Source: Halobacteriales archaeon QH_10_65_19
GTDB taxonomy: Archaea > Halobacteriota > Halobacteria > Halobacteriales > Haloarculaceae
DNA length: 21,817 bases
Assembly (NCBI GenBank): GCA_003022085.1
Contig: PXQK01000116.1
Span: 1-21,817, forward strand
Direction: 5' to 3'
How positions within the stretch are numbered: the first letter of the stretch is position 1; each line of letters starts with the position of its first letter. A model generated the notes under the pieces. The model was not told the origin of the DNA. It did not search any database and saw nothing but the letters and a program-made list of their open reading frames with translations. The translations under genes and the position numbers were made by a program. Shown here piece by piece: positions 2,565 through 18,749 of this stretch.

Positions 2565-3656
2565 ATGAGTATGCACGTAAAGGAAAGACTGAGTGGAGCG
2601 TATAGAGTGTTGAGCTCCGAGAAGGCGGTTGCCGTATTTTTTTCAAGTATCCTGGTCTTTGGCGCAGGCTGCTCCGGACTACTGCAGGATGAGGCCGGTA
2701 CGGACAACGCCGGAACAGTCGAGAGCGTCCCTGCTGGCGTCGACGGCGTCGTGCATTTCGATAGCGGTGTGGTCGACGACCAGGCGACAGTCACGCTGAT
2801 GAACGGGCTGCTAGAGCGGAGCGAAGAGAACCGTACCTACGAGGAGATTCTGACGGAGACAGAGTCCGATTCGGACCTCTCGAGAGAGGAGTTCAACAGC
2901 GCAACGATGTTTATGAAACTCGAGGAGTTCGAACAGGAGGAGTACGCGGGCGTGATCATCGATACCGAGTGGAGCTGGGAGGAACTCAGGGAGGCGGGTG
3001 ACAACGAGGTCGAGGACGTCGAGGATGTCGAGGAGGACACCTACAACGGCGTCACTGTATACAAGAGCTCCGACGAAATGGGTGAGGATGCCTGGGTTGC
3101 CGATTTCGGTGACGGTACATTCGCGTTCGGCGTTCCGGAGGCCGTCAAAGATGTCATCGACACCCGCGAGGGCGAGTCTAACTCCTTGGGCGGCGACCTG
3201 CGGACTGCCTACGACAGTGCCAAGGACGGGTACATGAAATCCGCGTTCCTCGTCCCCGAAGAGGAAGTCGACAAAGCCGGTCAGCAAGCGGGGGTCGACG
3301 CGAACTTCGTGCCGACCCCTCGAATCATGACGATGACGTACTACACAGACGGGAACACGATGAACATCGACGCCGACATGACGATGAACTCGACCGAGGA
3401 GGCCGAGCAGTTCTACCAGGTGGCGGGCGCCACACTCGACCCGGCGACCGGTTCGCCGGACGACGACCAGGATCCGTTTACCACGCTAGTCGAGGCTATC
3501 ACGGTCGAACAGGACGGAGAGACGGTAACGATGAGCTTCTCGATAACACCCGAGGAGCTGCTCGACCTTTTGGAACAACTCGGCGGCATGACCAGGGCGG
3601 GGGTAGGTGGCACCGTGTCGCTCGGATCGGGGCCGAGCTCCGGTATCGCGGGCTAA
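2565..3656 (+). CDS. Secreted lipoprotein of unknown function, linked to an ABC-2 exporter
   Basis: The 363-residue protein has a Sec-type lipoprotein signal: hydrophobic stretch about residues 21-35 and lipobox G-A-G-C36, with no twin arginine. It should be anchored on the outer face of the membrane. The mature part is very acidic (for example EVEDVEDVEEDTYNGV around residues 146-161) and has no motif that I recognise. It ends in a Gly/Ser-rich tail. It is followed after 14 bp by an ABC-2 permease and its ATPase, so an accessory or substrate-related role for that transporter is likely but unproven. The start could be the ATG at 2565 or the in-frame ATG at 2571; both keep the signal peptide. 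Confidence 0.8.
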   Translation: MSMHVKERLSGAYRVLSSEKAVAVFFSSILVFGAGCSGLLQDEAGTDNAGTVESVPAGVDGVVHFDSGVVDDQATVTLMNGLLERSEENRTYEEILTETESDSDLSREEFNSATMFMKLEEFEQEEYAGVIIDTEWSWEELREAGDNEVEDVEDVEEDTYNGVTVYKSSDEMGEDAWVADFGDGTFAFGVPEAVKDVIDTREGESNSLGGDLRTAYDSAKDGYMKSAFLVPEEEVDKAGQQAGVDANFVPTPRIMTMTYYTDGNTMNIDADMTMNSTEEAEQFYQVAGATLDPATGSPDDDQDPFTTLVEAITVEQDGETVTMSFSITPEELLDLLEQLGGMTRAGVGGTVSLGSGPSSGIAG

Positions 3657-3670
3657 CTCCTCACTACTGA

Positions 3671-4732
3671 ATGTCGATCCGTTCACTACTGCGGAAGGAA
3701 CTCCGCTGGAGCAGGCGTCACATCTTCGTTCTCGTCTTCCTACTGGTTGCCCTCCCGCTGTTTTTCGCGGGCACGAGCTTCCTCTTTCAGGACGTGATCC
3801 CGCGGGAGGTCCCGGTCGCGGTCGTCGCCGAGGACGAGTCCGTCTCGAACCTCGACCTCGGGCTGGTCAGGGCCGGCATGGCACCGTACACGAACCCGAA
3901 ATCCGCGGGGAGTCAGGCGGAGGCGCTCCGCATGCTCGAACGGGAGTCGGTGTACGCTGTTGTTACGGTACCGTCAGATCTCCGTTCGGGGGAGGCGACG
4001 TTCAGGCTCACCGTCGACGGGACCATCGTCCCGTTCCAGAGCTCATCGCAGGTGATACAGAACCTCATCGAACTGGAGCTGAACCAGATTGAGGCGGCGG
4101 ACGTCTCGGTCGAACGGGAGATCGTCGGGGAAACGAAGGAACTTCCGGAGTATCTCCTTCCCTCGTTTCTGATGACGCTAATGATCTTCTTTGCGTTCAC
4201 GTACGTCCCCTACAACATCGGGCGCGATCAGGTCGTCCTCGACAGGCTCCGCGTCGAGAGTTCGCTGGAGGCGCTGCTCGTCTCCAAGCTCGGTTACATG
4301 ACGGTGCTGATGCTGGTACCGATTCTCGTGTTCCACCTCATCGCGACGTACTACGGGTACGCCATCGACTCCTTCGCCCCGGGTGCGGTGTTTGTCCTGC
4401 TTCTAACCTTCGCCCTCATGGCGACAGTCAGCGCGACGGTGGTGATTCTCACCCGCTTCAGCGGCGCAGGGCGGTTCGTCAACCTGCTCGTGATGCTGGG
4501 GCTGATTGCGCTCTCGGGGCTGGCTTTCCCGCTTGGCTTTTTCTCCCCGGTCCGGACGCAGGTCGCCCAGCTCCTTCCCACCCACTACGCGATGGTGGCG
4601 GTCCGGAGTCTCATGCTCAAGGACAGCTCTCTTGGCACATTCGCCGACTGGATCGCAATCATACTGGGGCTGTTCGTCCTGTCGCTGGTAGCTCTGGAGG
4701 GGGCGATCGTCTACTACCGGAGGTCGACCTGA
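3671..4732 (+). CDS. ABC-2 type transporter permease
   Basis: The 353-residue membrane protein has the classic ABC-2 exporter layout. It starts with a short cytoplasmic N-terminus and one membrane helix at about residues 15-37. A large external domain follows (about 38-155, containing VPVAVVAEDESVSNLD). Five more hydrophobic segments from about residue 160 to the end include YLLPSFLMTLMIFFAFTYV and LLVMLGLIALSGLAFPLGFF. The fold is that of exporters that move lipids, peptides or drugs, or act as components of NatB/Nos-like systems. The substrate is unknown. The stop codon directly abuts the ATG of the ATPase gene at 4733, so the two are almost certainly translated and assembled together. The lipoprotein gene precedes it by 14 bp. 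Confidence 0.88.
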   Translation: MSIRSLLRKELRWSRRHIFVLVFLLVALPLFFAGTSFLFQDVIPREVPVAVVAEDESVSNLDLGLVRAGMAPYTNPKSAGSQAEALRMLERESVYAVVTVPSDLRSGEATFRLTVDGTIVPFQSSSQVIQNLIELELNQIEAADVSVEREIVGETKELPEYLLPSFLMTLMIFFAFTYVPYNIGRDQVVLDRLRVESSLEALLVSKLGYMTVLMLVPILVFHLIATYYGYAIDSFAPGAVFVLLLTFALMATVSATVVILTRFSGAGRFVNLLVMLGLIALSGLAFPLGFFSPVRTQVAQLLPTHYAMVAVRSLMLKDSSLGTFADWIAIILGLFVLSLVALEGAIVYYRRST

Positions 4733-5476
4733 ATGTCCCGGGATCACCCAGCGGAAGAGGGGGTCGAGCCGATCAGGCTGGACGGTGTGACGAAGACCTA
4801 CGGCGACATCCGGGCGGTCGACGACCTCTCGCTTTCGGTCGGCGGCGGCCAGTACCACTGCCTGCTCGGCCCCAACGGCTCCGGAAAGTCGACGGTAATG
4901 CGTCTGATCCTCGGGCTGACGCGGCCGACTGACGGGCGCATCGAGAGCCCGGCGGCGACCATCGGCTGTGGCTTCCAACAGCCCAACTTCTACCCGGGGC
5001 TCACCGTCCGGGAGAACATCAGGGTGTTCGCGAGCCTGGTGGGCGCGAGCGACTGGGAGTGGAACCAGACTGTCGTCTCGGAACTGCGGCTCAGCCGCGC
5101 GCTCGAACGCGAAGCCGGCGACCTCTCCGGGGGGTTCGCTCGCCGGCTCGACCTCGCGTTAGCGCTGATCAAGCGACCCGAGTTCCTGCTGCTGGACGAA
5201 CCGCTTGGCGCACTCGACGACGTCTCACAGGAACGCCTGCTCGACTTCCTCGGCCGGTACGCCGGCGACGGCCACACGGTACTGGTCTCGACCCACGAGA
5301 TTACCGAGTTCGAGCCCTACACTGACCGGGTAACTGTCCTGCACCGAGGTGAACCGGTCTTGGACCGAACCGTCGGCGACATTCCGCTCGAGGACGGGGA
5401 GTCTCTCCAGTCGTACTACGTCGACACTGTACTGGCCCGCGAGGGTGTCACGACCGCCGGTAGTGACGACGCCTGA
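4733..5476 (+). CDS. ABC transporter ATP-binding protein
   Basis: The 247-residue protein has every ABC ATPase motif in order: Walker A G46-PNGSGKS-T54, Q-loop Q82-Q83, signature LSGGF 131-135, Walker B LLLDEP 152-157 and switch histidine H188. It energises the preceding ABC-2 permease, to which it is joined with no spacer (TGA of the permease, then ATG). It is normal length for a single nucleotide-binding subunit. The last gene of a three-gene operon (2565-5476), it ends with a TGA whose final base is the first base of a 16-bp inverted repeat. No substrate specificity can be read from the sequence. Confidence 0.92.
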   Translation: MSRDHPAEEGVEPIRLDGVTKTYGDIRAVDDLSLSVGGGQYHCLLGPNGSGKSTVMRLILGLTRPTDGRIESPAATIGCGFQQPNFYPGLTVRENIRVFASLVGASDWEWNQTVVSELRLSRALEREAGDLSGGFARRLDLALALIKRPEFLLLDEPLGALDDVSQERLLDFLGRYAGDGHTVLVSTHEITEFEPYTDRVTVLHRGEPVLDRTVGDIPLEDGESLQSYYVDTVLAREGVTTAGSDDA

Positions 5477-7620: not shown

Positions 7621-8127
7621 TCAACGGCCGAACCAGGAGAAAAAGCCGCCGCTGTTGTCGTCCTCGATGCTCTCGCGCGTCATCTCGAAGAACTCCTCGT
7701 CGGGGAGGTTGACGTCGAGAACGTCGAGTTCGACCGGGTCGCCCGTGCTGTCGAAGGCCTGCCAGTCGGTCGGGCCGTAGGGTGCACCGACGATGATGTG
7801 GACCTCACCCTGGCCGAAGGTCCCGAGGTCGGCGTTGCTCGGCCTGAGCACGCCGTTCGGGTGCGAGTGAACCGATCCGACGGACTGGACGTTGTTCGGC
7901 CGCATGAACTCCTGGACAGAGGCGCTTGTCGGGCCCGACTCCGTTCCGGGAATGACGAGCACGTCTGTGATGACTTGTCCCTGCCGATCCACGCCGAGAC
8001 GGCCCGCGTCGTCGGCGCGCAGAAACCCCATGTACTCGTTGGGGTGGGTGTCCTCGGAGGCCCGCAGAACGAAATCTAGCGTGTCGCGGGCGATGCCGAG
8101 CAGCTCGCTCGATCGGAACAGACCCAT
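7621..8127 (-). CDS. JAMM/MPN (Mov34) family metalloprotease
   Basis: The 168-residue protein has a complete JAMM zinc site: catalytic Glu E31 (HPNEYMGFL) and the H87-S-H89-P-x6-S97-x2-D100 motif (HSHPNGVLRPSNAD). In haloarchaea, JAMM proteases of this kind remove ubiquitin-like SAMP modifiers from proteins. Whether this paralogue does so cannot be read from the sequence. The C-terminal tail FFSWFGR is short and hydrophobic. It lies 42 bp downstream of the iron permease gene on the same strand and might be read through from it, but no functional link is evident. The start at 8127 fits the family. Confidence 0.88.
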   Translation of the reverse strand: MGLFRSSELLGIARDTLDFVLRASEDTHPNEYMGFLRADDAGRLGVDRQGQVITDVLVIPGTESGPTSASVQEFMRPNNVQSVGSVHSHPNGVLRPSNADLGTFGQGEVHIIVGAPYGPTDWQAFDSTGDPVELDVLDVNLPDEEFFEMTRESIEDDNSGGFFSWFGR

Positions 8128-8169: not shown

Positions 8170-9771
8170 TCACAGCCCACCCTCGGTATCCTCCTGGGAG
8201 AGCAATACCACCATCGAGAGCCCGGAGATAACGAGCAGAATGACCGCAGGGACCGCCGCAGCTTGGAAGAGCCCGGCGTCCTGTGCCCGCCAGATCTGCG
8301 TGGCAATGGTATCGAACTCCGAGGGGGCGAGTATAAGTGTCACCGGTAGCTCCTTCATCGCCGTCAGGAAGACGAGCGCAGCCCCGGCGACGATCCCGGA
8401 CCGCACGAGCGGGAGCGTGACCCTGCGGAAGGCCCCGAGAGGGGATTCACCGAGTGTCCGACCCGCCTCGATCAGCCGCGGGTCGACCTGGAACAGCGAG
8501 CCGCGGATCGATCCGACTGCCTGCGGGAGGAACCTGACTACGTAGGCGAACACGAGCAGGTAGGTCGAGCGGTAGATCCAGCTGCCGTACTCCGATCCGA
8601 AGTACACCAGCGACAGCCCGAGTACGACACCGGGAACGGCGAAGCCGACGTAGGTCACCCGCTCGAAGAGTACCGCGATCCGCGAGTCGTGGGTTGTCAC
8701 GAAGAACGCGATAGGCAGCCCAACCAGCGCCGCGACGGCAGCAGCGGCGACGGCAACCTGTAGGGAGTTGAACGCGTACACCCACTCGAACGCGATGTCA
8801 CTCCGGTAGGCCGTGCCCGTGCGCCGGACCCACAGCAGGAGGATCCAGACCGGAACCAGGAGTGCCATCGCGCTCACTGCTCCGGGAAGCAGCGTCGCGG
8901 GCCACCGCCACCTCCCGAGTCTGACAGACCTCTCACCCGCGCTCGCCCCGTCACCGCCGCCCGCCGTGACGTCGGGTCTGATCCGTGACTCGACGGCCAG
9001 GACCACCAGGACGACCGCGAGCAGCTGCAAGGAGAGCAGCGCCGCGTACTCCGAGCTGAAGCCATACAGCTCGACGTAGATCTGGCGGGTGAACACCGGC
9101 AGCTGCATAATCGCCGGCGTCCCGAAGTCCGAGACGGCATACAGCGCACAGAGGAGCGCGCCGGCGGCGACCGCCGGTCTGATCTGTGGGAGCGTCACCC
9201 GGCGGAACGCCGACCATCGGCCGTGGTTCAGGCTCCGGGCCGCATCAATCAGGTCGGTGTCGAACGACAGGAGCGCCGCCCGGGTTGTCAGATAGACGTA
9301 CGGGTAGGTGTACAGCGTGATGACGAACACTGTGCCGGCCATCCCGTACACCTCCGGGAGGCTCTCGATCCCCAGCGGCGCGAGAAACGACTGAAACTCC
9401 CCCCTGGGGCCGAACGCGGAGACGAACGCGAACGCGCCGACGTAGCTCGGTATCACAAGGGGCAGCGCGACCGCGACCGACCAGAAGCGCCGGAAGGGCA
9501 GATCAGTCCGCACTGTCAGGTACGCGAGGGGCACACCGAGCAGTATCGAGAACCCCGTGACACCGGTCATCAACAGGAGGCTGTTGGTTACCACCTCCCT
9601 CGTCTGGGGCCGAAACAGCAGTTCGCGGGCGCGTGTGACGTCGATGCTCGCAGCCTCGATGAACAGCCACAGAAGCGGGAATACCAGTGCCGCCGCTATC
9701 CCACCACACAAAAGCGCCAGCCCGACCGGGAACTCTCCCCCGGTCCGGGTAAAGCGGCCCAGGCTCGTCAT
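8170..9771 (-). CDS. Two-domain ferric-iron ABC transporter permease (FbpB/SfuB type)
   Basis: The 533-residue protein is a fused permease with two homologous halves. Each half has a cytoplasmic EAA loop: DAARSLNHGRWSAFRRVTLP at about 176-195 and EAGRTLGESPLGAFRRVTLP at about 435-454. This duplicated layout and length are typical of binding-protein-dependent Fe(III) importers (FbpB, SfuB, FutB), though thiamine (ThiP) and phosphonate-type permeases share the fold. Iron is favoured because the promoter region shares a TTAGG-N4-CCTAA operator with the divergent genes, and because an FbpA-like binding protein lies 5 kb away under a similar operator. No ATPase gene is adjacent. The next gene downstream is the JAMM protease. 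Confidence 0.85.
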   Translation of the reverse strand: MTSLGRFTRTGGEFPVGLALLCGGIAAALVFPLLWLFIEAASIDVTRARELLFRPQTREVVTNSLLLMTGVTGFSILLGVPLAYLTVRTDLPFRRFWSVAVALPLVIPSYVGAFAFVSAFGPRGEFQSFLAPLGIESLPEVYGMAGTVFVITLYTYPYVYLTTRAALLSFDTDLIDAARSLNHGRWSAFRRVTLPQIRPAVAAGALLCALYAVSDFGTPAIMQLPVFTRQIYVELYGFSSEYAALLSLQLLAVVLVVLAVESRIRPDVTAGGGDGASAGERSVRLGRWRWPATLLPGAVSAMALLVPVWILLLWVRRTGTAYRSDIAFEWVYAFNSLQVAVAAAAVAALVGLPIAFFVTTHDSRIAVLFERVTYVGFAVPGVVLGLSLVYFGSEYGSWIYRSTYLLVFAYVVRFLPQAVGSIRGSLFQVDPRLIEAGRTLGESPLGAFRRVTLPLVRSGIVAGAALVFLTAMKELPVTLILAPSEFDTIATQIWRAQDAGLFQAAAVPAVILLVISGLSMVVLLSQEDTEGGL

Positions 9772-9832: not shown

Positions 9833-9848
9833 TTTTAGGTTTGCCTAA
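9833..9848. promoter_or_regulatory. DtxR/Idr-type iron-box operator 1
   Basis: TTTTAGGTTTGCCTAA contains the dyad TTAGG-N4-CCTAA. It sits between the TATA box and the expected start of transcription of the gene at 9860 (12-25 bp before the ATG), where a bound repressor would block initiation. It is also 64 bp upstream of the permease start on the other strand. The half-sites match those recognised by DtxR/SirR/Idr metal-dependent regulators. Confidence 0.75.
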
Positions 9849-9859
9849 TCCATCCGAAC

Positions 9860-10402
9860 ATGGAGCTTTCCCGGCGTGACGCGGTGGCGGCCCTCGCAAC
9901 ACTCGGTGCCGGCAGCGGGGCGGTAGGACTCTATCACGTCGGGGGGACCGGGTCCTCGGAGGAACCCGAACCCCGGGAGGTCCCTGGCGACGAGCACGTC
10001 ATGGCGGTCGGCGTCGCCATCGCCGAGGTGATCTACCCGTCCGAAGTGACGGGTATCGAGTCGTTCGTAGGCGAGTTTCTCGACGCGCGCCTGGCCCGTG
10101 ACGGGCACGGAGCGGGTCTCAGGGAGGCGGCCGCGATCGTCGAGGACAGGGCGACACAGTGGTACGACAGGGGTGTCGTGAATCTCGACCCGGCCACGAG
10201 GGATCGGCTCCTCAGGGAGATCGGCGCCGACACGGCCGACGAGGCGCCCGGCGGGAGCGACGCCGAACAGGTCCGCTACTACCTGGTCAACGACCTCCTG
10301 CTGGCGCTGTATGCGTCGCCGGCCGGTGGCGAACTCGTCGGGATCGAGAACCCGCAAGGGCATCCGGGCGGCACCGATACGTACCAGCGGGGGCCACAAT
10401 GA
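9860..10402 (+). CDS. Tat-exported small (gamma) subunit of a gluconate-2-dehydrogenase-like complex
   Basis: The 180-residue protein belongs by pattern to the gluconate 2-dehydrogenase subunit 3 family. It opens with a Tat signal, S4-R5-R6-D followed by AVAALATLGAG. It then has AIAEVIYPSEVTGIESFVGEFLDARLARD, the usual family core, and a C-terminal VRYYLVNDLLLALYASPAGGELVGIENPQGHPGGTDTY. In the family it binds the FAD-containing large subunit and carries it through the Tat pathway as a hitch-hiker. The large-subunit gene overlaps its end by 4 bp (ATGA), which indicates translational coupling. It starts 12 bp after an iron-box operator. No lipobox is visible, so anchoring would rely on the uncleaved signal or on a partner. 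Confidence 0.85.
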   Translation: MELSRRDAVAALATLGAGSGAVGLYHVGGTGSSEEPEPREVPGDEHVMAVGVAIAEVIYPSEVTGIESFVGEFLDARLARDGHGAGLREAAAIVEDRATQWYDRGVVNLDPATRDRLLREIGADTADEAPGGSDAEQVRYYLVNDLLLALYASPAGGELVGIENPQGHPGGTDTYQRGPQ

Positions 10403-12009
10403 GCGAGGACACGCCGGCGGCGGGTCGGGACCGGTCGCCGGTCGACGGTGCGGAGGTGTGTGTCGTCGGCGCGGGACCAGCAGGGGCGCTGGTCGCCGAC
10501 CGGCTTGCGGGGAAGCACGAGGTCGTCGTGCTAGACGCCGGACAGCGGTTCGATCCGGCCGACAGGGATCGGCGCCAGGAGCGTGCGATCCGGCCGGCCT
10601 ACGACCGGCCGGACGTCTGGGACGTCGGCGGCGAGCGGGACGCCCACGCGGCCAGCGGCGAGTGGTTCTACCCGCTGAACCACGCCCGCGTCAAGGGCGT
10701 CGGGGGGTCGACGCTCCACTGGCAAGGGATGGTGATGCGCCTCCACGAGGACGACTTCAACTCCGGGAGCCAGCGGGGTGTCGGCCCGGACTGGCCGATC
10801 AACTACGCGGATCTTCGCCCGTACTACGCCACAGCGGAGCGCGAACTGGGGGTCTCGGGAGCCGACGACAACCCCTTCGCACCCGCACGCGAGAGGCCAC
10901 ACCCGATGCCGGCCTTTCCGCCGTCGTACAGCGACTCTCTGTTCGCAGACGCCTGCGAGTCGCTCGGAATCGCGATGCACTCGGTACCCAACGCCCGCAA
11001 CTCGGAGCCGTACGGCGACCGGAGCGAGTGTGTGGGCTACGGCACCTGTCAGCCGGTCTGCCCCTCCGAGGCGAAGTACGACGCGACCGTCCACGTCGAC
11101 CGGGCCGAGAACCAGGGGGCGACCGTTCTCGACCGCGCCCGGGTCGGACACCTGGAACACACCGCGGACTCTGTCGAGGCCGCCGTCTACACGACGCCCG
11201 ACGGCTCCCGATACTGTCAGGATGCTGATTGTTTTGTCCTGGCCTGTGGCGGCGTCGAGACCCCGCGCCTCCTCCTGCTGTCGGAGTCGGATCGGTACCC
11301 CGACGGCCTGGCGAACTCGAGCGGTCTCGTCGGCCGCTACTTCGCCGACCACCTCTTCGCGGGCGTCGGGGGCGTGCTCGACGAGCCGACCCGGCAGAAC
11401 CACGTCGGCTTTCTCACGAGCGAGTCCCACCAGTTCTACGACGACGCCGGCAGGGAGGTGGCGCCGTTCAAACTCGAGTTTTTCAACTACGCCGGGCCCT
11501 CGCCGGTCGAGAGTGCGCTGACCGGCGACGACTGGGGCGACGCGCTGCTCGACCGCCTCAGGTCCGAGTACGGCGGCCACGTCGCGGTCGGCGGCCTCGT
11601 CGAGCAGCTGCCCCGCGAGGACAGCTACGTCGGGCTCGACCCGGACGAAACCGACGACAGGGGCAACCCCGTCCCGGACGTCCACTGGAACGTCGGCGAC
11701 CGGGCGCTGCGGACTATCGAACGGGCCAACGAGATCCAGCGGTCGATCCTCGACGAGCTTGGCGCCGACCTCACCTGGACGGTCGGTCCCGAGAACACCG
11801 GCCCGGCCTACCACCACATGGGCACAACGCGGATGGGGACCGATCCCGCGGACAGCGTGGTCGACCCGGGCTGCAGGACACACGACCTCGACAACTGCTG
11901 GATCGCCTCCAGCAGCGTCTTTCCCACCGGCGGTGCGGTCAACCCCACACTGACCATTGCCGCGCTCGCGTTGCGGGTCGCCGATGCCGTCGAGGGGTCA
12001 CTTTTTTAG
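10399..12009 (+). CDS. GMC oxidoreductase, FAD- and probable [3Fe-4S]-containing catalytic subunit
   Basis: The 536-residue protein is a GMC-family flavoenzyme. It shows the FAD site V22-VGAGPAG-A30, the GGSTLHWQG loop, and the C-terminal signature YHHMGTTRMG plus FPTGGAVNPTLTIAALALR with the catalytic His/Asn region. Between them, C211-x5-C217-x3-C221 (ECVGYGTCQPVC) has the same spacing and nearly the same numbering as the [3Fe-4S] ligands of the bacterial FAD glucose dehydrogenase alpha subunit. It probably oxidises a sugar or polyol outside the membrane after export with the Tat-signal gamma subunit, with which it overlaps by 4 bp. No cytochrome c subunit follows, so the electron acceptor is unknown. 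Its stop codon lies inside iron-box operator 2. Confidence 0.88.
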   Translation: MSEDTPAAGRDRSPVDGAEVCVVGAGPAGALVADRLAGKHEVVVLDAGQRFDPADRDRRQERAIRPAYDRPDVWDVGGERDAHAASGEWFYPLNHARVKGVGGSTLHWQGMVMRLHEDDFNSGSQRGVGPDWPINYADLRPYYATAERELGVSGADDNPFAPARERPHPMPAFPPSYSDSLFADACESLGIAMHSVPNARNSEPYGDRSECVGYGTCQPVCPSEAKYDATVHVDRAENQGATVLDRARVGHLEHTADSVEAAVYTTPDGSRYCQDADCFVLACGGVETPRLLLLSESDRYPDGLANSSGLVGRYFADHLFAGVGGVLDEPTRQNHVGFLTSESHQFYDDAGREVAPFKLEFFNYAGPSPVESALTGDDWGDALLDRLRSEYGGHVAVGGLVEQLPREDSYVGLDPDETDDRGNPVPDVHWNVGDRALRTIERANEIQRSILDELGADLTWTVGPENTGPAYHHMGTTRMGTDPADSVVDPGCRTHDLDNCWIASSSVFPTGGAVNPTLTIAALALRVADAVEGSLF

Positions 12010-12021
12010 GTATACCTAAAA
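12004..12021 (+). promoter_or_regulatory. DtxR/Idr-type iron-box operator 2 (18-bp perfect palindrome)
   Basis: TTTTAGGTATACCTAAAA is a perfect palindrome containing TTAGG-N4-CCTAA. It overlaps the TAG stop of the GMC gene and a TATA-like run, and lies 32-49 bp before the ATG at 12053. This gives the GT2 gene its own iron-responsive promoter within the gene string. Confidence 0.8.
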
Positions 12022-12052: not shown

Positions 12053-12829
12053 ATGAGCGACACAGCGAGTCCGGCAGTCGGTGAGGCAGGTGTAGAGAGC
12101 GCGCCCCGGGCGTCGGCGGACAGCGGCGCCGACGACGGGGGGGAGAATGGGCGCTACACGTTCGAGGACGTGAGCGTGGTGATGGGCACCTACAACGAGG
12201 AGAAGGCCATCGGGACGGTGCTTTCAGACATCGAGCGGGTGACAGACGGGAAAGCAGAGGTCGTCTGCGTGGACGGTTCCTCGGACCGCACGCCGGAGAT
12301 TGCACGCGAGCACGGCGCCAGGGTAATCGAGCAGGAGCCACGTGGGTACGGCGTTGCCGTCCGGGAGGGGATTCTCGCGCCGGACCGGCCGGTGGTCGTG
12401 ACGACGGACTGTGACGACACCTACCCGATGGAGCAGCTCCCCGAGTTCCTCGAACTCGTCAACGAGGGGTACGACGTGGTCAGCGGCGACCGGCTGTACC
12501 ACGGCGCCGACGCCATGCCGGCGTTCAACCGCCTGGGGAACCACCTGTTCGCGCTGGCAGCGAGCCTCCTGACGGGCACGCGCGTCCACGACGCGACCAC
12601 GGGAATGCGCGCCTACCGCCGGGAGGTCGTGGAGTCGATCGAGTGGACGGAAAACACCGGCCTGTCGGCCGAACTGCTGATCCGGCCCCTAATGTGTGGC
12701 TACGACGTCCGCGAACACCCCATCGAGTACCGGGAGCGCGCCGGCGAGTCGAAGCTCGACCCCATCGGGGGCGGACTCGCCATCGGAAAGTCGATCGTGA
12801 CAGTCTGTGTCGACGAGCGGTTCCGCTGA
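12053..12829 (+). CDS. DPM1-like GT2 glycosyltransferase (polyprenyl-phosphate hexose synthase type)
   Basis: The 258-residue protein has an acidic, low-complexity N-terminus of about 35 residues followed by a GT-A domain: VVMGTYNEE (about 42-50), the nucleotide-binding VCVDGSSD with D74, and the metal-binding D119-C-D121-D122-TYP. The domain without C-terminal membrane helices is like dolichol-phosphate mannose synthase and the haloarchaeal enzymes that charge dolichol phosphate with hexose. It probably transfers a sugar from UDP or GDP to a polyprenyl phosphate at the inner membrane face. The product would suit the GT-C enzyme encoded convergently at 12916-15039. It is governed by operator 2, so iron control is likely. 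The specific sugar is unknown. Confidence 0.82.
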   Translation: MSDTASPAVGEAGVESAPRASADSGADDGGENGRYTFEDVSVVMGTYNEEKAIGTVLSDIERVTDGKAEVVCVDGSSDRTPEIAREHGARVIEQEPRGYGVAVREGILAPDRPVVVTTDCDDTYPMEQLPEFLELVNEGYDVVSGDRLYHGADAMPAFNRLGNHLFALAASLLTGTRVHDATTGMRAYRREVVESIEWTENTGLSAELLIRPLMCGYDVREHPIEYRERAGESKLDPIGGGLAIGKSIVTVCVDERFR

Positions 12830-12846
12830 CGTCTTCTGCCGACGGT

Positions 12847-12889
12847 ACCCGGCCAGCGACACTGGCCCGTTGGTTACCCCCGGCCGGGT
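12847..12889. terminator. Hairpins between convergent glycosyltransferase genes
   Basis: ACCCGGCC (12847-12854) pairs with GGCCGGGT (12882-12889). An alternative inner hairpin pairs GGCCAG (12851-12856) with CTGGCC (12862-12867) over a 5-nt loop. The location, between two genes that converge, suits a shared terminator, though there is no strong T-run. Confidence 0.4.
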
Positions 12890-12915
12890 GCCTCGCCGAG
12901 TTCACGCTGCGATTA

Positions 12916-15039
12916 TCATCTGAGAAACGTCTCGAAGGTGAGACCGCCTCGCGGATCGCCGGGAAGATACGTTCCCTCCCTCCCACAGTCGTCGACAACC
13001 GGACAGACGGTCCGCTCGGGCGGCCACACGACATCGACTTCGTCGCCGCGCTCGCGCACTGTCAGTTCCTGTCTGTAGGTGAGCGACCCCGCGGCGGGCT
13101 GGCTCAGCCGAACCTGGATCACGACTTCCTCGGGCGACAGAGTGGCGACCGCCTCGGATTCCACGGCAGCCCCGTCGACAGACGTGAGGGCTACGCCGCC
13201 GGGATCGATCCGCCACGCGAACTCCAGGCTGTCACCTGTCTCGTCGACCTCCCGCGTCACGTGGCCAGCCCCGGTTTCGATTCGGATTGTCGCGTGTGAG
13301 ACGCGGTCCGGCACCCCGATCCTGGTCCTGCCGGCAAGCTGTGGGCTGGAGCGAACGGCGATAGGGTGCAGTGTCGGCCTCACTCGTCTGTCGTCCGGGT
13401 CGGCAGTCCACTCGCCGCGGAAATCGTAGCGGTACTGCTGTCTGTCGGGGTACCGGTCCAAAACCGCGAAGTCGGCAGACGGACCCCGATCCATCGCGTA
13501 CACGACGTCGCCGTCGAACCCGGGATCGTTGCGGAGATACTGGAACGGGTGGTTCAGCCACTCGCCGTACGGCGTCGGAAGAAACACGACAGCGTTCTCC
13601 AGGCTCCGGTTCTCGAAGGGATCGTATGCGTCCTCGTAGGTTGCCGTCTGGGCGGCATTTCGGTCGAGCGGGCCGGCCGCCAGGGCTGCGTTGAACCCCC
13701 CGAGGATCAGGGCACCCCCGAGGAGGAGTCCAACGGTCCCGGCGACGGCGCTCCGGCGGGTCGGGGCGGCCTCGTCGATACGGCGTCGTCCGATGCGCCA
13801 GAGCGCGACAGCCCCCGCGGCGGTGAAAATCGCCACCGGCGCGAGCAGGTCGAAGTGGTAGAACGGGCCGAACTGACCGAGGAGCCCGTCCGTCGGGTCG
13901 CTCATCGTCTCCAGAATGTTGTAGTTGCCCCAGAACAGGACGTTTCCGGCCGGAACCGAGACGAACAGCGCAGCGAGCAGGCACTGGGGAAGGGCGTCCC
14001 CGGTCAGAACGGTCCACCGACGGACGGCGGCGACAAGGCCAACGGCAGCTAGCGCAGTCCCGAGGGCACCCGCGAACACCCACCTCGTCAGCAGGTACCC
14101 CACCACGTACCCGTTCGCCTGGACGGCGAGTGCCGGGGTGTACTCGGTGGAGTGACTCAGGATCTCCCGGTGGCCGAAGCCGGGGCCGTCTTCCGGCGCG
14201 AACGCTTCGTAAGGAAACACCAGCGCGTCGCCCGTAATGGCGACGTTGTACGACAGTGAGAGGGCGACGAAGACGAGTCCGACGGCCGCAGTAGCCAGGT
14301 TGCGACGGACGGCTGTCGCGCCGACCGCACCGCGAAGCGTCGTCCTGACGCTGCCGTCGCTGCGGTCGCGGAGCGTCCGTGCCAGCGTCAGCAGGGCGTG
14401 TCCCACGAACGGCGCCGCGAACAACACTGCGGTGAACGGCCGCATAAAGAACGCGACGCCGACGGCGAATCCGGCGAGTGCAGCCGTCCGCACGCTGCGG
14501 GTCCTGGCCGCATGGAGATACACCACTGCAAACAGGAGGGTGAACAGCGTCGTCGGTGCGTACGGGAGGAACACGGAGGAGGTGACCAGCGTCATGGGCG
14601 CGAGCGCGAACGTAGCGGCCGCCAGCACGCCGACGCGTCGGTCGAACGCCATCGAGCCGAGCACGTAGACGAGCGCGGTGTTCCCGGCGGCGACCGCGGC
14701 GAGTGCGACGCGCGGTTCTCCGACAGCCCCCATCACGAATGCGTAGAATGCGGCCGGGATCGGCTGGTACTTCGGGTAGAGCCGGTCGCCGGCGTCGAAG
14801 AAAAACCAGGGACGAACCGAATCTCCCAGTTCGCCGGGGAACAGCCCGAGCTGTCCCTCGAGCAACATCGACGCCTGCTGGAGGTAGACCCCCTCGTCGT
14901 GGTTCGACGAGTGGTAGGGAAACACCTCGGTGGCGATCAGAAAGACGGCCACGCCGGCCAGAACCGCGATCAGCGCAGCCAGGGGACGCTCGCGGCGGGC
15001 GACAAACCACCGTCCGCGGGCACGGAGCGCCTCGATCAC
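12916..15039 (-). CDS. GT-C family (PMT/ArnT-like) membrane glycosyltransferase
   Basis: The 707-residue protein has an N-terminal membrane helix (about 19-39), then the GT-C catalytic loop with the acidic pair D48-E49 in SSNHDEGVYLQQASMLLEG. About ten further membrane helices extend to roughly residue 485. The LYPKYQPIPAAFYAF segment is a second family feature. A soluble C-terminal domain of about 220 residues follows, probably outside the cell, with a CPVVDDC pair near its end. GT-C enzymes use polyprenyl-phosphate sugars, which fits the DPM1-like enzyme encoded next to it. It is the last gene of a three-gene operon, 7 bp after the iron-binding-protein gene, under operator 3. The acceptor (protein, lipid or glycan) is unknown. 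Confidence 0.82.
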   Translation of the reverse strand: MIEALRARGRWFVARRERPLAALIAVLAGVAVFLIATEVFPYHSSNHDEGVYLQQASMLLEGQLGLFPGELGDSVRPWFFFDAGDRLYPKYQPIPAAFYAFVMGAVGEPRVALAAVAAGNTALVYVLGSMAFDRRVGVLAAATFALAPMTLVTSSVFLPYAPTTLFTLLFAVVYLHAARTRSVRTAALAGFAVGVAFFMRPFTAVLFAAPFVGHALLTLARTLRDRSDGSVRTTLRGAVGATAVRRNLATAAVGLVFVALSLSYNVAITGDALVFPYEAFAPEDGPGFGHREILSHSTEYTPALAVQANGYVVGYLLTRWVFAGALGTALAAVGLVAAVRRWTVLTGDALPQCLLAALFVSVPAGNVLFWGNYNILETMSDPTDGLLGQFGPFYHFDLLAPVAIFTAAGAVALWRIGRRRIDEAAPTRRSAVAGTVGLLLGGALILGGFNAALAAGPLDRNAAQTATYEDAYDPFENRSLENAVVFLPTPYGEWLNHPFQYLRNDPGFDGDVVYAMDRGPSADFAVLDRYPDRQQYRYDFRGEWTADPDDRRVRPTLHPIAVRSSPQLAGRTRIGVPDRVSHATIRIETGAGHVTREVDETGDSLEFAWRIDPGGVALTSVDGAAVESEAVATLSPEEVVIQVRLSQPAAGSLTYRQELTVRERGDEVDVVWPPERTVCPVVDDCGREGTYLPGDPRGGLTFETFLR

Positions 15040-15046
15040 GGGCAGA

Positions 15047-16165
15047 TCAGATGGTAATTCCTACGTCGCGCATCATGTCCAGCGTCGGCTGGAGGTCGGA
15101 GAGCTGCGACAGGTCGATCTCGGGCACCGCCAGTCCGTCGACGGTGGGGAGGTCCCCGACGGGCTCGACCTCACCGATCAGCGGGTACTCGAACGTCTCG
15201 ACCGCGAAGTACTCCTGGGCCTCGGCCGAGAGCAGGTGTCTGACGAAGTTCTCCGCCAGCTCCGGATCATCCGCAACGTCGACAACGGTTGCGCCCGCGA
15301 CGTTGAACACGACGCCGGCGTCGTCGCGGGTGAACGTCGTCCCGAGCGGGGCGTCCGGGCTGCCGTCCAGCACCCGCTGGATGTAGTAGTGGTTGGCAAA
15401 CGCCGCGTCGATCTCCCCGTCGGCGACCGCCTGTGTCGCGGCGAACTCGTCGTTGTAGGCCCTGATCCCGTTTTCGACGACGCCTTCGAGCCACTGGCGG
15501 GTCCGATCGTCGCCCTCGAGGATCCGCATCGCCGTCACGAACGCCTGACAGGAGCCGTATCCCGGCGCCCAGCCGAGGTCGCCGTCGAACTCTTCGTAGG
15601 CCATGATGTCGTCGGGGAGGTCCGACTCTGAGAGCGCGTTCTTGTTGTAGGGTATCGACCGGGCCCGCCCGGATGTTCCGATCCACGACTCCGTTCTGAA
15701 CGCGCTGTCGACCAGTTCGAGCACGTCATCCGAGAGGGCTCGGGTCCGACCCTCGTCGGCGAGCGCGCCCAGTGCCCCCGCGTTGACCGAGAAGAACACG
15801 TCCGCGTCCGTACCGTCACCCTCGTTGATGATGGTGTTGACCAGGTCCGTCGCGCTCCGGTACCGTGGAACGACCTCGAAACCGTCGTAGAGGTTCTCGA
15901 TGTGGTCGACCAGCCGCCCGACCAGAAACTCGTTGCGTCCGGAGAACAGCGACAGTTCCCCCGAGAGGTCGGGGAGTTCCGCCATCGGGGTCCCGCCCGG
16001 TTCCGGCCGGTCGGCGCGGCCGGACCCGATCAGCCCCGGCTCCGGGTCCTCGCTCGACAGGAGATCCGAACAGCCGGCGAGGCCGACCGCGGAAGCAGCA
16101 GCGGCGCCTGCCAGTAACGTTCGTCGGTCGGTGCGCGGGTCGTGGTCCGAGTTGTTGGATACCAT
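15047..16165 (-). CDS. Tat lipoprotein iron(III)-binding ABC substrate-binding protein (FbpA-like)
   Basis: The 372-residue protein has a Tat lipoprotein signal: D13-R14-R15-T, hydrophobic core, lipobox L-A-G-C32. It should be anchored outside the membrane. The mature domain starts about residue 68 (GELSLFSGRNEFLVGRLVDHIE) and matches the Fe(III)/spermidine-type binding-protein fold. A tandem tyrosine pair, H259-Y260-Y261 (ANHYYIQR), corresponds to the iron-ligand tyrosines of FbpA. The likely partner is the permease at 8170-9771; no ATPase gene lies in the window. It sits 6 bp after the RGP-like gene and 7 bp before the GT-C gene, an unusual setting that suggests its surface role is coupled to glycosylation. 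Confidence 0.88.
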   Translation of the reverse strand: MVSNNSDHDPRTDRRTLLAGAAAASAVGLAGCSDLLSSEDPEPGLIGSGRADRPEPGGTPMAELPDLSGELSLFSGRNEFLVGRLVDHIENLYDGFEVVPRYRSATDLVNTIINEGDGTDADVFFSVNAGALGALADEGRTRALSDDVLELVDSAFRTESWIGTSGRARSIPYNKNALSESDLPDDIMAYEEFDGDLGWAPGYGSCQAFVTAMRILEGDDRTRQWLEGVVENGIRAYNDEFAATQAVADGEIDAAFANHYYIQRVLDGSPDAPLGTTFTRDDAGVVFNVAGATVVDVADDPELAENFVRHLLSAEAQEYFAVETFEYPLIGEVEPVGDLPTVDGLAVPEIDLSQLSDLQPTLDMMRDVGITI

Positions 16166-16171
16166 TGGTTG

Positions 16172-17329
16172 TCAGTCGTCTGCTGCCGCAGGCACGCGGT
16201 CGAGCGCCGCGAGCGCGTCCAGCCAGTCGTGCATGTGTTCGCCCACGTAGTGCAGGAACTTGCCGTTGCGGTAGGAGCCGGCGTCCGCCTCCAGAAGTGC
16301 GTCGGCCATCGCCCGGTAGGCTTCCGCGTAATCCGTCGCGTCGCCGCCGGCGTCGTCGATCAGCCGCCAGACGTACTCGTTCAGTTCCAGCCCCGCCACC
16401 TCGTTGTGGAGGTCGTCGAACGTCGAGCGCGGCGCCTTGTTGTGCTCACACAGCGGTCGCCCGTTGTAGATCCGCTTCCCGAGCACGTCACAGGCTCGCT
16501 TGAGGAACACGCCGCTCCAGATGTCGTCGAACCGGCCGACGTCCCACTTGTTGTCGTCCATGGGAAGCTGGTAGAACGCCGGGACTACCTCCCGCCGGAA
16601 GGCGAGGTTCATCGAGCAGACGGTGAGGTAGTTCCCTCGTGCGGCGACGAAGTCTTCCTCGAAATCCCCGGGGACGGTCCGCGTCTGTGCCTGACCCTGC
16701 AGGTCGCCGTCCATCAGGATCCTGACGGCGTCCAGGTCCGGGACGTTCGTCCACAGCCCCTGTGAGGCAACGACCTCGCCGTCCTCGACCCGAACGGTGT
16801 CGGTCTCGACTGTCTCGTCCATCGCCGAGTAGGGGTACCCCCGCGGGTAGAGGCCGTGCTCATCCGCGCTCTGGTAGAGGACGTTGACCCACTGTTCGTC
16901 CGAGGCGACGCGCCGGATCTCGCCCTCGAATCCGAGGTTCGCCAGGTGCCGCCCGAAGAAGTGCTCTCCGTCCTGGGGCAGCGTGTCGTCGTCCAGGAAG
17001 ACACCGTACTCGAAGCGTGGGTTGGCCCAGGTGTAGAGCAGCCCGAAGCTGGTCTCGGCGTGGCTCGCCGCCGGAACCACATCCCCGTACTCACTGATCC
17101 CTTCTGTACGGTACCACTCCTCGCGACGGCTGGCATCGAACACCCGCCCTGCGACCCCGAGGTCGTCGAGCATCGACCGCATTGCCGCCGTCTCGCAGAA
17201 GTCCTCCGTGACGAGCAAGAAGTACAGTCTGGACACGTCGAACCCGTGTCTGCGCGCGTTCTCGACGTACGCCCGGACGCAATCGTACTCCCTGATCGTG
17301 GGGACGACCACGCAGATGTCCTGGCTCAT
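16172..17329 (-). CDS. RGP / UDP-arabinopyranose-mutase-like protein ('alpha-1,4-glucan-protein synthase' family)
   Basis: The 385-residue cytosolic protein resembles the reversibly glycosylated polypeptide (RGP) family, whose plant members interconvert UDP-arabinopyranose and UDP-arabinofuranose. It has the opening VVVPTIREYDCVRAYVE (7-23), the nucleotide-sugar/metal motif FLDDDTLP with D113-D114-D115, and the later block DNKWDVGRFDDIWSGVFLKRACD typical of the family. The arginine used by plant enzymes for self-glycosylation cannot be assigned by eye. It is the first gene of the operon RGP, iron-binding protein, GT-C, and its start lies 13 bp from operator 3, so iron control is expected. It may supply a nucleotide sugar to the neighbouring transferases, or glycosylate directly. 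Confidence 0.75.
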   Translation of the reverse strand: MSQDICVVVPTIREYDCVRAYVENARRHGFDVSRLYFLLVTEDFCETAAMRSMLDDLGVAGRVFDASRREEWYRTEGISEYGDVVPAASHAETSFGLLYTWANPRFEYGVFLDDDTLPQDGEHFFGRHLANLGFEGEIRRVASDEQWVNVLYQSADEHGLYPRGYPYSAMDETVETDTVRVEDGEVVASQGLWTNVPDLDAVRILMDGDLQGQAQTRTVPGDFEEDFVAARGNYLTVCSMNLAFRREVVPAFYQLPMDDNKWDVGRFDDIWSGVFLKRACDVLGKRIYNGRPLCEHNKAPRSTFDDLHNEVAGLELNEYVWRLIDDAGGDATDYAEAYRAMADALLEADAGSYRNGKFLHYVGEHMHDWLDALAALDRVPAAADD

Positions 17330-17338
17330 CGACCCCAG

Positions 17339-17358
17339 TTTTTAGGCCGACCTAAAAA
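17339..17358. promoter_or_regulatory. DtxR/Idr-type iron-box operator 3
   Basis: TTTTTAGGCCGACCTAAAAA contains TTAGG-CCGA-CCTAA flanked by symmetric T/A runs. It covers the region where the TATA box of a leaderless promoter for the minus-strand operon would lie (dyad 13-26 bp before the ATG at 17329). It can therefore be expected to control the RGP, iron-binding-protein and GT-C operon. Confidence 0.8.
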
Positions 17359-17666
17359 AGGGTGTCGATCCACAGCTCGGAGTCCTCCGGCTCACACGGA
17401 CCCGGGTCGGCCGACCGGAGGCGTCCATGGCCAACGCTGGGAGGCCCAATTATTTAAGCTTGCCTAAAAACCCCCGGTACAGTCGACTGAAGCACTGTAT
17501 TCCCGTATTCCCGACAGAGCGATCCGGGAGGTCCCGCCGGTGTTCGCCCGCTGCGACGGTGTACGGTACTCCGCGCGCCTGCCAGAAAGGCCTGTCTCTG
17601 GTCGTGCAGCCCGACAGCCGAACAACGCCACACCTATGCCCCCCCTGGACGCAGTGGCACCTGACC
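17359..17666. other. Divergent intergenic region with a GC dyad and a long untranslated leader
   Basis: No convincing gene is present. A 12-bp palindrome, GGTCGGCCGACC, lies at 17405-17416 between operators 3 and 4 and could bind a further regulator. After operator 4 about 200 bp precede the ATG at 17667, far longer than the leaders of neighbouring genes. The reading frame of the membrane protein stays open upstream to an ATG at 17427, but those extra 80 residues are Arg/Ser/Pro-rich and unlike the acidic proteins around them. I therefore treat this stretch as leader. Confidence 0.6.
17454..17467 (+). promoter_or_regulatory. Degenerate iron-box operator 4 overlapping a TATA-like box
   Basis: TTAAGCTTGCCTAA keeps the right half-site CCTAA and the N4 spacing but has TTAAG on the left. 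It overlaps the TATA-like TTATTTAAG at 17450-17458. The site faces the membrane-protein gene at 17667, though it is 200 bp from its ATG. Confidence 0.5.
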
Positions 17667-18749
17667 ATGGTGACCGCACAGCTCACAGTCGAGGTACTGC
17701 TGGCGGGCCTCGCCGGCGGGGTAATCGGCGCCGCGATCGGGGGCCTGCCGGCCCTGAGTCTCGCCGGTGTCGTGATCTCGGTCGGCGAGATCGCCACTGT
17801 AACAGGTGGTGTGACACCGGACGACGGCGGTTCTGTGACCGAGGTGTTCGGCGTCGAGCCGGCGGCGTTAGAGGCTGTTGGCGTCTCCGGAAGCGTCGGC
17901 TTCGGACCGGTGCTCGGCCCCCACGTCGCCTTCGCGGGGGGTGTGGCGGCCGCCGCGTACCTCGGCCGTCGGGAGACTATCGACACCGGCTTCCGGTACC
18001 ACCAGGCCAAGAAGATCACCAAACCCCTGGGGAGCCAGCCCGACGTCCTGCTGGTCGGCGGGGCCTTCGGCGTCTTCGGTGTCCTTCTCGCGCGCGTGAC
18101 TGCGGAGGCCGGGGTCCCTGTCGATCCGGTGATGCTCGCCGTCGTCGTCTCCGGGTTCGTTCACCGGCTCGCGTTCGGCTACCCGCTGGTGGGCCGACTT
18201 GGGAACCTCCAGACGTCGGTGCTGGACATGTCACCGTTCGAGCGCGACGACCGGTGGGGAGAGCCCGAGCACGGGACCGCACAGGGCACCGGTGGTCGCC
18301 ACGTGGTCGAACCGTGGCTCCCCGAACACTACGACCCGGTACAGCTCACCGTCCTCGGTGCGGGCGTCGGGGTCGTCTCGGGCTACGTCGCGCTCGTCAC
18401 CGGGAGCGTGTTCCTGGCGTTTGGCATTACAGCGGCCAGCCTCCTCTTTCTCTCCCTGGGGCTGTACGATCTGCCAGTCACCCACCACATGGCGCTCCCG
18501 GCGAGCATCGCCGCGCTGGCTGTCGTCGGGGACACCGAACCCGTCGTCGCGCTCGTGGCTGCGGGCGCCTTCGGTGTTGTCGGCGCGCTGGCCGGGGAAC
18601 TCGCCCAACGGACGCTGTACGCCCACGCTGACACCCACCTCGACCCGCCGGCTGTCTCGATTGTTCTGACGAGCCTGCTGCTCACGGTGCTGGCCGCCCT
18701 CGGTGTGCTCGATCCCGGTCCGGTGCCGTATCCGGAGATTTATAGGTAA
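17667..18749 (+). CDS. Polytopic membrane protein of unknown function, likely iron-regulated
   Basis: From the ATG at 17667 the protein has 360 residues, with about eight to ten hydrophobic segments rich in Gly, Ala and Val (first TVEVLLAGLAGGVIGAAIGGLPALSLAGVVI; later VLLVGGAFGVFGVLLARV and LTVLGAGVGVVSGYVALVTGSVFLAFGITAASLLFLSLG). Loops contain His-bearing stretches such as GFRYHQAKKITKP, RHVVEPWLPEHYDP and PVTHHMALP, which might bind metal; that is speculation. I do not recognise the family. Its own degenerate iron box and its divergent position relative to the RGP and iron-binding-protein operon make a transport role in the iron response plausible. An earlier in-frame ATG at 17427 was rejected on composition. 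Confidence 0.75.
   Translation: MVTAQLTVEVLLAGLAGGVIGAAIGGLPALSLAGVVISVGEIATVTGGVTPDDGGSVTEVFGVEPAALEAVGVSGSVGFGPVLGPHVAFAGGVAAAAYLGRRETIDTGFRYHQAKKITKPLGSQPDVLLVGGAFGVFGVLLARVTAEAGVPVDPVMLAVVVSGFVHRLAFGYPLVGRLGNLQTSVLDMSPFERDDRWGEPEHGTAQGTGGRHVVEPWLPEHYDPVQLTVLGAGVGVVSGYVALVTGSVFLAFGITAASLLFLSLGLYDLPVTHHMALPASIAALAVVGDTEPVVALVAAGAFGVVGALAGELAQRTLYAHADTHLDPPAVSIVLTSLLLTVLAALGVLDPGPVPYPEIYR

Follow-up and report, generated by a model that had tools for sequence, protein, structure and literature searches.

A candidate iron-repressed surface glycosylation gene set linked to a ferric importer in haloarchaea

The window analysed here, a stretch of 21,817 nucleotides from Halobacteriales archaeon QH_10_65_19 (assembly GCA_003022085.1, contig PXQK01000116.1), has a G+C content of 0.58-0.70 per kb and carries a set of sugar genes beside genes of a ferric importer of the ATP-binding cassette (ABC) type. 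RGP, FbpA and GT-C form an operon on the minus strand, with ORF (open reading frame) gaps of 6 bp between the first two genes and 7 bp between the last two. GT2 converges on this operon from the plus strand and lies downstream of a Gdh3-GMC pair. An earlier note on this DNA had described an RGP gene, an FbpA-like twin-arginine translocation (Tat) lipoprotein and GT-C as one operon with these gaps, and a convergent DPM1-like GT2 gene with its own iron box. The coordinates and family scans bear out the first point, and a match to NF041391 together with an exact operator at 12006-12019 bears out the second. The genes and operators are listed below.

8170..9771, minus strand: fused ferric ABC permease, FbpB type (BPD_transp_1 in two stretches)
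9835..9848: operator between Gdh3 and FbpB, TTAGGTTTGCCTAA (exact match; conserved in relatives)
9860..10402, plus strand: Gluconate_2-dh3-type small subunit (Gdh3) with twin-arginine signal (PF13618; twin-arginine-like start)
10399..12009, plus strand: flavin adenine dinucleotide (FAD)-dependent GMC sugar dehydrogenase, catalytic subunit (GMC domains; PDB matches)
12006..12019: operator before GT2, TTAGGTATACCTAA (exact match; conserved in relatives)
12053..12829, plus strand: GT2, predicted dolichyl-phosphate sugar synthase (NF041391)
12916..15039, minus strand: GT-C membrane glycosyltransferase with C-terminal DUF7846 (PF13231, PMT_2; PF25230; AlphaFold2 model)
15047..16165, minus strand: FbpA-type ferric-binding Tat lipoprotein (PDB FbpA matches; conserved residues)
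16172..17329, minus strand: RGP, predicted GT75/RGP-type nucleoside diphosphate (NDP)-sugar pyranose-furanose mutase, 385 aa (PF03214; MtdL in PDB; active-site alignment)
17342..17355, 12 nt from the ATG: operator before RGP, TTAGGCCGACCTAA (exact match; conserved in relatives)

RGP is recognized by PF03214 in a Pfam scan (E 5e-16, 59.2 bits against a cut-off of 23.8), and its nearest relative in the PDB is MtdL (chain 7xpr, E 3.5e-24; the chain numbering in the alignment is MtdL plus one). Roles of the MtdL active-site residues are taken from passages of PMC9937993. Most of the active site is conserved: RGP D113-D115, R163, D198, S239, R266, D269 and H296 align with MtdL D109-D111, R159, D195, S228, R257, D260 and H287. 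The DDD metal motif (113-115) and R163, equivalent to the autoglycosylated arginine, are invariant in 15 RGP sequences. H90, M240, K298 and R301 occur in place of MtdL D87, Q229, R289 and H292. Passages of the same paper report that D87N, D87S and Q229A each inactivate MtdL; they also report serine at the D87 position of active Arabidopsis RGPs, so this position varies among active members. Since D87 and Q229 matter in MtdL but are replaced in RGP, the substrate may differ. The family and the active-site alignment predict NDP-sugar mutase activity for RGP; its AlphaFold2 model is poor (mean predicted local distance difference test score, pLDDT, 43.6). The window protein thus resembles the GT75 mutases (MtdL, Hyg20 and plant UAM/RGP) in family match, DDD motif, R163 and most substrate-binding residues. 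It differs in the four replaced residues and in lying beside GT2 and GT-C genes rather than in a pathway for an antibiotic or for the plant wall.

Other RGP copies are also found. Loci L104, L105 and L106 carry divergent second copies, about 61-64% identical to the window RGP, that form their own clade and have neither GT-C behind them nor an operator. In one genome (G017, C2:1525556-1526527) a second RGP covers nearly the whole of PF03214 with 452 bits, where the next best haloarchaeal row has 72.6 bits; it is possibly closer to plant RGPs.

The two glycosyltransferases are of known kinds. GT2 scores 402.1 bits against NF041391, over the curated cut-off of 375. That family comprises dolichyl-phosphate hexose transferases of the type of HVO_1613, which we take to be its Haloferax member. 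The window GT2 is distinguished from this type by operator control and by the constant company, in the sampled genomes, of a GT75 mutase and a DUF7846 GT-C. The GT-C protein contains PMT_2 (PF13231) and DUF7846 (PF25230) in the Pfam scan. Its AlphaFold2 model (pLDDT 73.4) has a predicted GT-C fold with an acidic first loop and matches OST, ArnT, ALG12 and AftA/AftB, with Emb also among the matches, in a search that barely probed the DUF7846 part. On this model the protein is predicted to be a lipid-phosphate-sugar transferase. A common logic of lipid-phosphate furanose plus GT-C enzyme links it to mycobacterial decaprenyl-phosphoarabinose and the Emb/Aft arabinosyltransferases. In mycobacteria the furanose is formed on the lipid carrier, whereas here the substrate of the GT75 mutase would be the nucleotide sugar, and the likeness seen is one of fold.

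The Gdh3-GMC pair (9860-12009), absent from the earlier note, tracks the sugar genes even where it is unlinked to them. GMC matches a glucose dehydrogenase (E 1e-79) and a fructose dehydrogenase large subunit (E 2e-73) in the PDB. Gdh3 belongs to PF13618, and 94 of 96 homologues have a twin-arginine-like start when a loose pattern is applied; a PDB search with Gdh3 gave no meaningful match. The pair is therefore like the FAD glucose/fructose dehydrogenase complexes in its catalytic subunit (match about 1e-79) and in a PF13618 small subunit with twin-arginine signal, but no cytochrome c subunit gene was noted beside it, none having been searched for.

FbpA has as its best PDB match 7w3w, a ferric iron-binding protein (E 4e-53), and shows solute-binding domains in the family scan. 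The twin-arginine lipoprotein signal is accompanied by residues R14, R15, C32, Y260 and Y261, each at least 95% conserved among 146 sequences. Paired tyrosines of FbpA proteins bind iron, and the window protein is like the FbpABC ferric importers in both sequence and tyrosine ligands. Known fbp operons, to our knowledge, contain no glycosyltransferases. In many relatives an FbpB homologue sits between FbpA and GT-C.

The sugar genes occur together across haloarchaea. PF03214 is found in 306 of 391 haloarchaeal genomes and PF25230 in 306 of 391, with the same 306 present and the same 85 absent when the two lists are compared by eye, entry by entry. NF041391 GT2 proteins over the cut-off are present in 80/80 RGP-positive genomes (sampled from the 306 by spreading them by hand along the list, one Fbp-less genome included), in 0/75 RGP-negative genomes (sampled from the 85) and in all five Fbp-less genomes. 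The genetic model Haloferax volcanii is among the genomes with RGP, GT-C and GT2 matches. For GMC (E <= 1e-60) the corresponding figures are 78/80, 3/75 and 0/5; the two RGP-positive genomes without it are G395 and G188, the latter being the Fbp-less one.

Gene order was compared in 153 distinct RGP loci, obtained from 180 by removing identical RGP stretches. Neither part of this set is random: 80 named Halobacteriales loci were the best 80 of 205 by closeness to the window RGP, and 100 further loci came from the best-scoring PF03214 rows. In 144 of the 153, FbpA comes after RGP and GT-C after FbpA, with FbpB and FbpC often accompanying FbpA. Five hold RGP, GT-C and GT2 without Fbp, and four lack GT-C in the fragment, one being cut by its contig and three belonging to the divergent second RGP clade. 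Chance proximity of the genes was rejected on the identical 306/85 split and the locus order. Shared descent as the sole cause was also rejected. A tree of CTP-synthase sequences from 61 genomes, 31 with RGP and 30 without, calls for 15 changes in RGP presence, so the agreement with GT-C does not reflect one shared clade. At least eight changes are forced by branches with Shimodaira-Hasegawa-like approximate likelihood ratio test (SH-aLRT) support >=95; the count may be too high if the marker gene has itself been transferred. Shuffled labels give a mean of about 20 changes against the 15 found, and RGP presence is still somewhat clustered.

FbpA has a different distribution. Homologues (E < 1e-40, 34-47% identity) occur in 58 of the 75 RGP-negative genomes, and the five Fbp-less genomes retain RGP, GT-C and GT2 with a best FbpA match no better than E 2e-4. 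The sugar pathway can therefore do without FbpA, which in turn makes FbpA unlikely as its dedicated acceptor. The earlier note had pictured a system built around an iron-binding protein that might itself receive the glycan, and had looked to the gene set staying together in other haloarchaea. RGP, GT-C and GT2 do stay together, with their operators, but FbpA is distributed differently among genomes. FbpA was accordingly rejected as the core of the system, its homologues being so common where RGP is missing, and its suggested role as acceptor fares little better. A pathway that exists to glycosylate FbpA would suit the position of that gene after RGP and before GT-C in 144/153 loci, yet the distribution just given, and the separate control implied by an operator between RGP and FbpA in 130/145 loci, make it very improbable.

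The operators follow the pattern TTAGGNNNNCCTAA, which we take to be that of a DtxR-family site. Three exact copies lie in the window, plus a one-mismatch site at 17454. The GMC stop codon falls within the GT2 operator (window 12006-12009). The window alone gives weak support: four sites were seen at <=2 mismatches, shuffled sequences averaged 2.27, and four or more appeared in 16 of the 100 shuffles. The weight of the operator call rests on the comparison of loci. The roughly 320 nt upstream of each gene contain an exact site for RGP in 76/80 loci, for GT2 in 56/62 and for Gdh3 in 51/55, and for GT-C and GMC in 0/81 and 0/57. As background, 6.3% of random 340-nt pieces from the same loci hold an exact site, real sites included. 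If one mismatch is allowed among the 153 loci, a site precedes RGP in 142/144 loci with Fbp and 0/5 without, and GT2 in 104/104 loci with Fbp and GT2 in the fragment and 0/5 without Fbp. The consensus of the 142 RGP sites is TTTAGGYNNNCCTAAA. For most of them the distance to the start of the match is 12-45 nt, a position from which a repressor could cover the promoter. The exact site between RGP and FbpA in 130/145 loci means that FbpA is usually under its own operator, and the tight RGP-FbpA gap of the window, otherwise seen in L001 and L002, is thus a local form. Of 12 FbpA loci taken from genomes lacking RGP, 8 also show a site when one mismatch is tolerated.

Operator control could in principle be functionless promoter sharing, the sugar genes being constitutive envelope genes that happen to lie beside an iron operon. 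Loci in which the genes lie apart from RGP are informative here, and 20 were chosen by coordinates before their operators were viewed. The operator is kept at 10/10 separate GT2 loci (two exact, eight with one mismatch) and at 10/10 separate dehydrogenase loci (all exact). Among the 20, the G220 locus is known only to lie apart from GT2, the GT2 genes of G267 and G104 are separated from RGP by contig boundaries in draft genomes, and those of L272 and L275 are directly behind GMC; in the dehydrogenase sample, L280 has no Gdh3 match beside GMC. With 20/20 separate loci retaining the operator, iron-operator control is not hitch-hiking, and selection seems to keep it on the sugar genes themselves. 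GT2 and Gdh3-GMC, on the opposite strand, also have operators of their own. Promoter sharing draws some support from the one clade of five genomes that keeps the trio but has neither Fbp nor operators, and we consider it distinctly unlikely.

Genome-wide counts agree with a real signal. In each of seven genomes there are 8-26 exact sites, while the reversed pattern occurs 0-8 times; the two named Fbp-less genomes have 13 and 8, the one with 13 having 8 reversed. Together with the upstream-site counts and the 20/20 separate loci, these figures led to the rejection of chance as the source of the operators. The pattern upstream of the module genes is also common to iron-uptake genes, which is the basis of a putative DtxR-family FerR/Idr regulon. 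For example, in Halorussus aquaticus 13 regions span 17 sites outside the RGP locus, and target genes could be assigned in 10 by an ORF rule. On the iron side these are a diaminobutyrate transaminase and three Peripla_BP_2 (FhuD-type) binding proteins; a riboflavin kinase-like gene diverges from one of the three. Other targets are a Gdh3, a lipoate ligase-like protein (from which a PEBP-like gene diverges), a gamma-glutamylputrescine synthetase, two DUF7552 proteins and one protein without a family. The list is mixed, so not all operator targets are plainly iron genes. In Haloferax volcanii the ferR signal precedes all fhu operons, according to passages of PMC11349517. In Halorussus, exact operators immediately precede the genes of DUF7551/DUF7552 proteins (L199, L203), which are likely to be iron-regulated, judging from the sites.

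These genes make up a real, widespread, operator-controlled set for lipid-carrier glycosylation and exported sugar oxidation, tied to ferric uptake and built of parts of known kinds. In the reading preferred here, with a probability of roughly 0.6, haloarchaea glycosylate their surface through a lipid carrier by means of a module that is repressed by iron and coupled to a ferric importer of the ABC type. As long as iron is plentiful, a repressor of the DtxR family, presumably of the FerR/Idr type, would occupy the TTTAGGYNNNCCTAAA operators near the start codons. RGP, GT2, GT-C, Gdh3-GMC and Fbp would be expressed together once iron becomes scarce. RGP would convert a cytoplasmic NDP-pyranose to the NDP-furanose, GT2 would load this product onto dolichol phosphate, and GT-C would transfer the presumed furanose outside the membrane to an acceptor there. 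Gdh3-GMC, exported by the twin-arginine route, would oxidize sugar outside the cell, and the module as a whole may benefit the supply of iron.

Several observations weigh against this reading. Two sugar-site residues of MtdL differ in RGP (D87 to H90, Q229 to M240), the first at a position that is variable in active RGPs, and the family of GT2 is named for a hexose, not a furanose. The assignment to iron is drawn from regulon content and from a ferR signal reported in the literature. Five genomes of one clade keep RGP, GT-C and GT2 without operators, and L103 and L122 keep Fbp with no operator before RGP; iron control is therefore not intrinsic to the pathway. The Fbp-less clade is single and nested among FbpABC loci (SH-aLRT 94, on a tree of 81 of 154 RGP rows), with L103 and L122 as its sister loci, so that the lack of both Fbp and operators counts as one event and proves little alone.

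The envelope might also change at low iron for general reasons, such as adhesion, salt or protection from viruses, with iron as a cue only and no part in capture. Persistence of the trio without Fbp fits such a role, as does AepG, a GT2 of Haloarcula hispanica that is likened to HVO_1613 in the passages of PMC9943897 where the latter is discussed, and that serves acidic exopolysaccharide formation and salt adaptation. Set against this are the linkage to FbpA in 144/153 loci and the missing operators of the clade that lost Fbp, a counterpoint limited by the single loss and by the sister loci L103 and L122, which keep Fbp without an RGP operator. A cue-only role is a credible possibility, held here short of even odds. 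A more specific form of the coupled module is improbable: in iron-starved cells RGP, GT2 and GT-C would make a surface furanosyl glycan, which the exported FAD dehydrogenase would turn into an anionic or keto form able to hold or reduce Fe(III), and FbpABC would import the iron. If true, it would be a sugar-made, surface-bound counterpart of a siderophore.

No description of an iron-controlled haloarchaeal sugar module was found in a search by title and start of abstract, with subscription journals mostly outside its range; the passages of PMC7407949 and PMC5605881 covered hold nothing on the module genes.

Other features of the window lie around these genes. The one-mismatch operator TTAAGCTTGCCTAA (17454-17467) is at the start of an ORF for a membrane protein (17427-18749) that runs divergently. 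This ORF probably begins later than listed, and it has homologues only in L001-L003 among the 80 loci. A JAB/MPN-domain protein (7621-8127), with a weak desampylase match, adjoins FbpB and is likewise restricted to L001-L003 among the 80. ORFs named by eye as a lipoprotein, a NosY-like permease and a NosF-like ATPase follow in a row at 2565-5476 and are probably unrelated to the module.

Archaeal glycosylation and iron homeostasis, normally separate fields, are linked by this one gene set. It gives archaeal GT75 mutases, DUF7846 and the dolichyl-phosphate hexose transferase a testable role, and it suggests a possible use of furanose sugars in archaeal envelopes.

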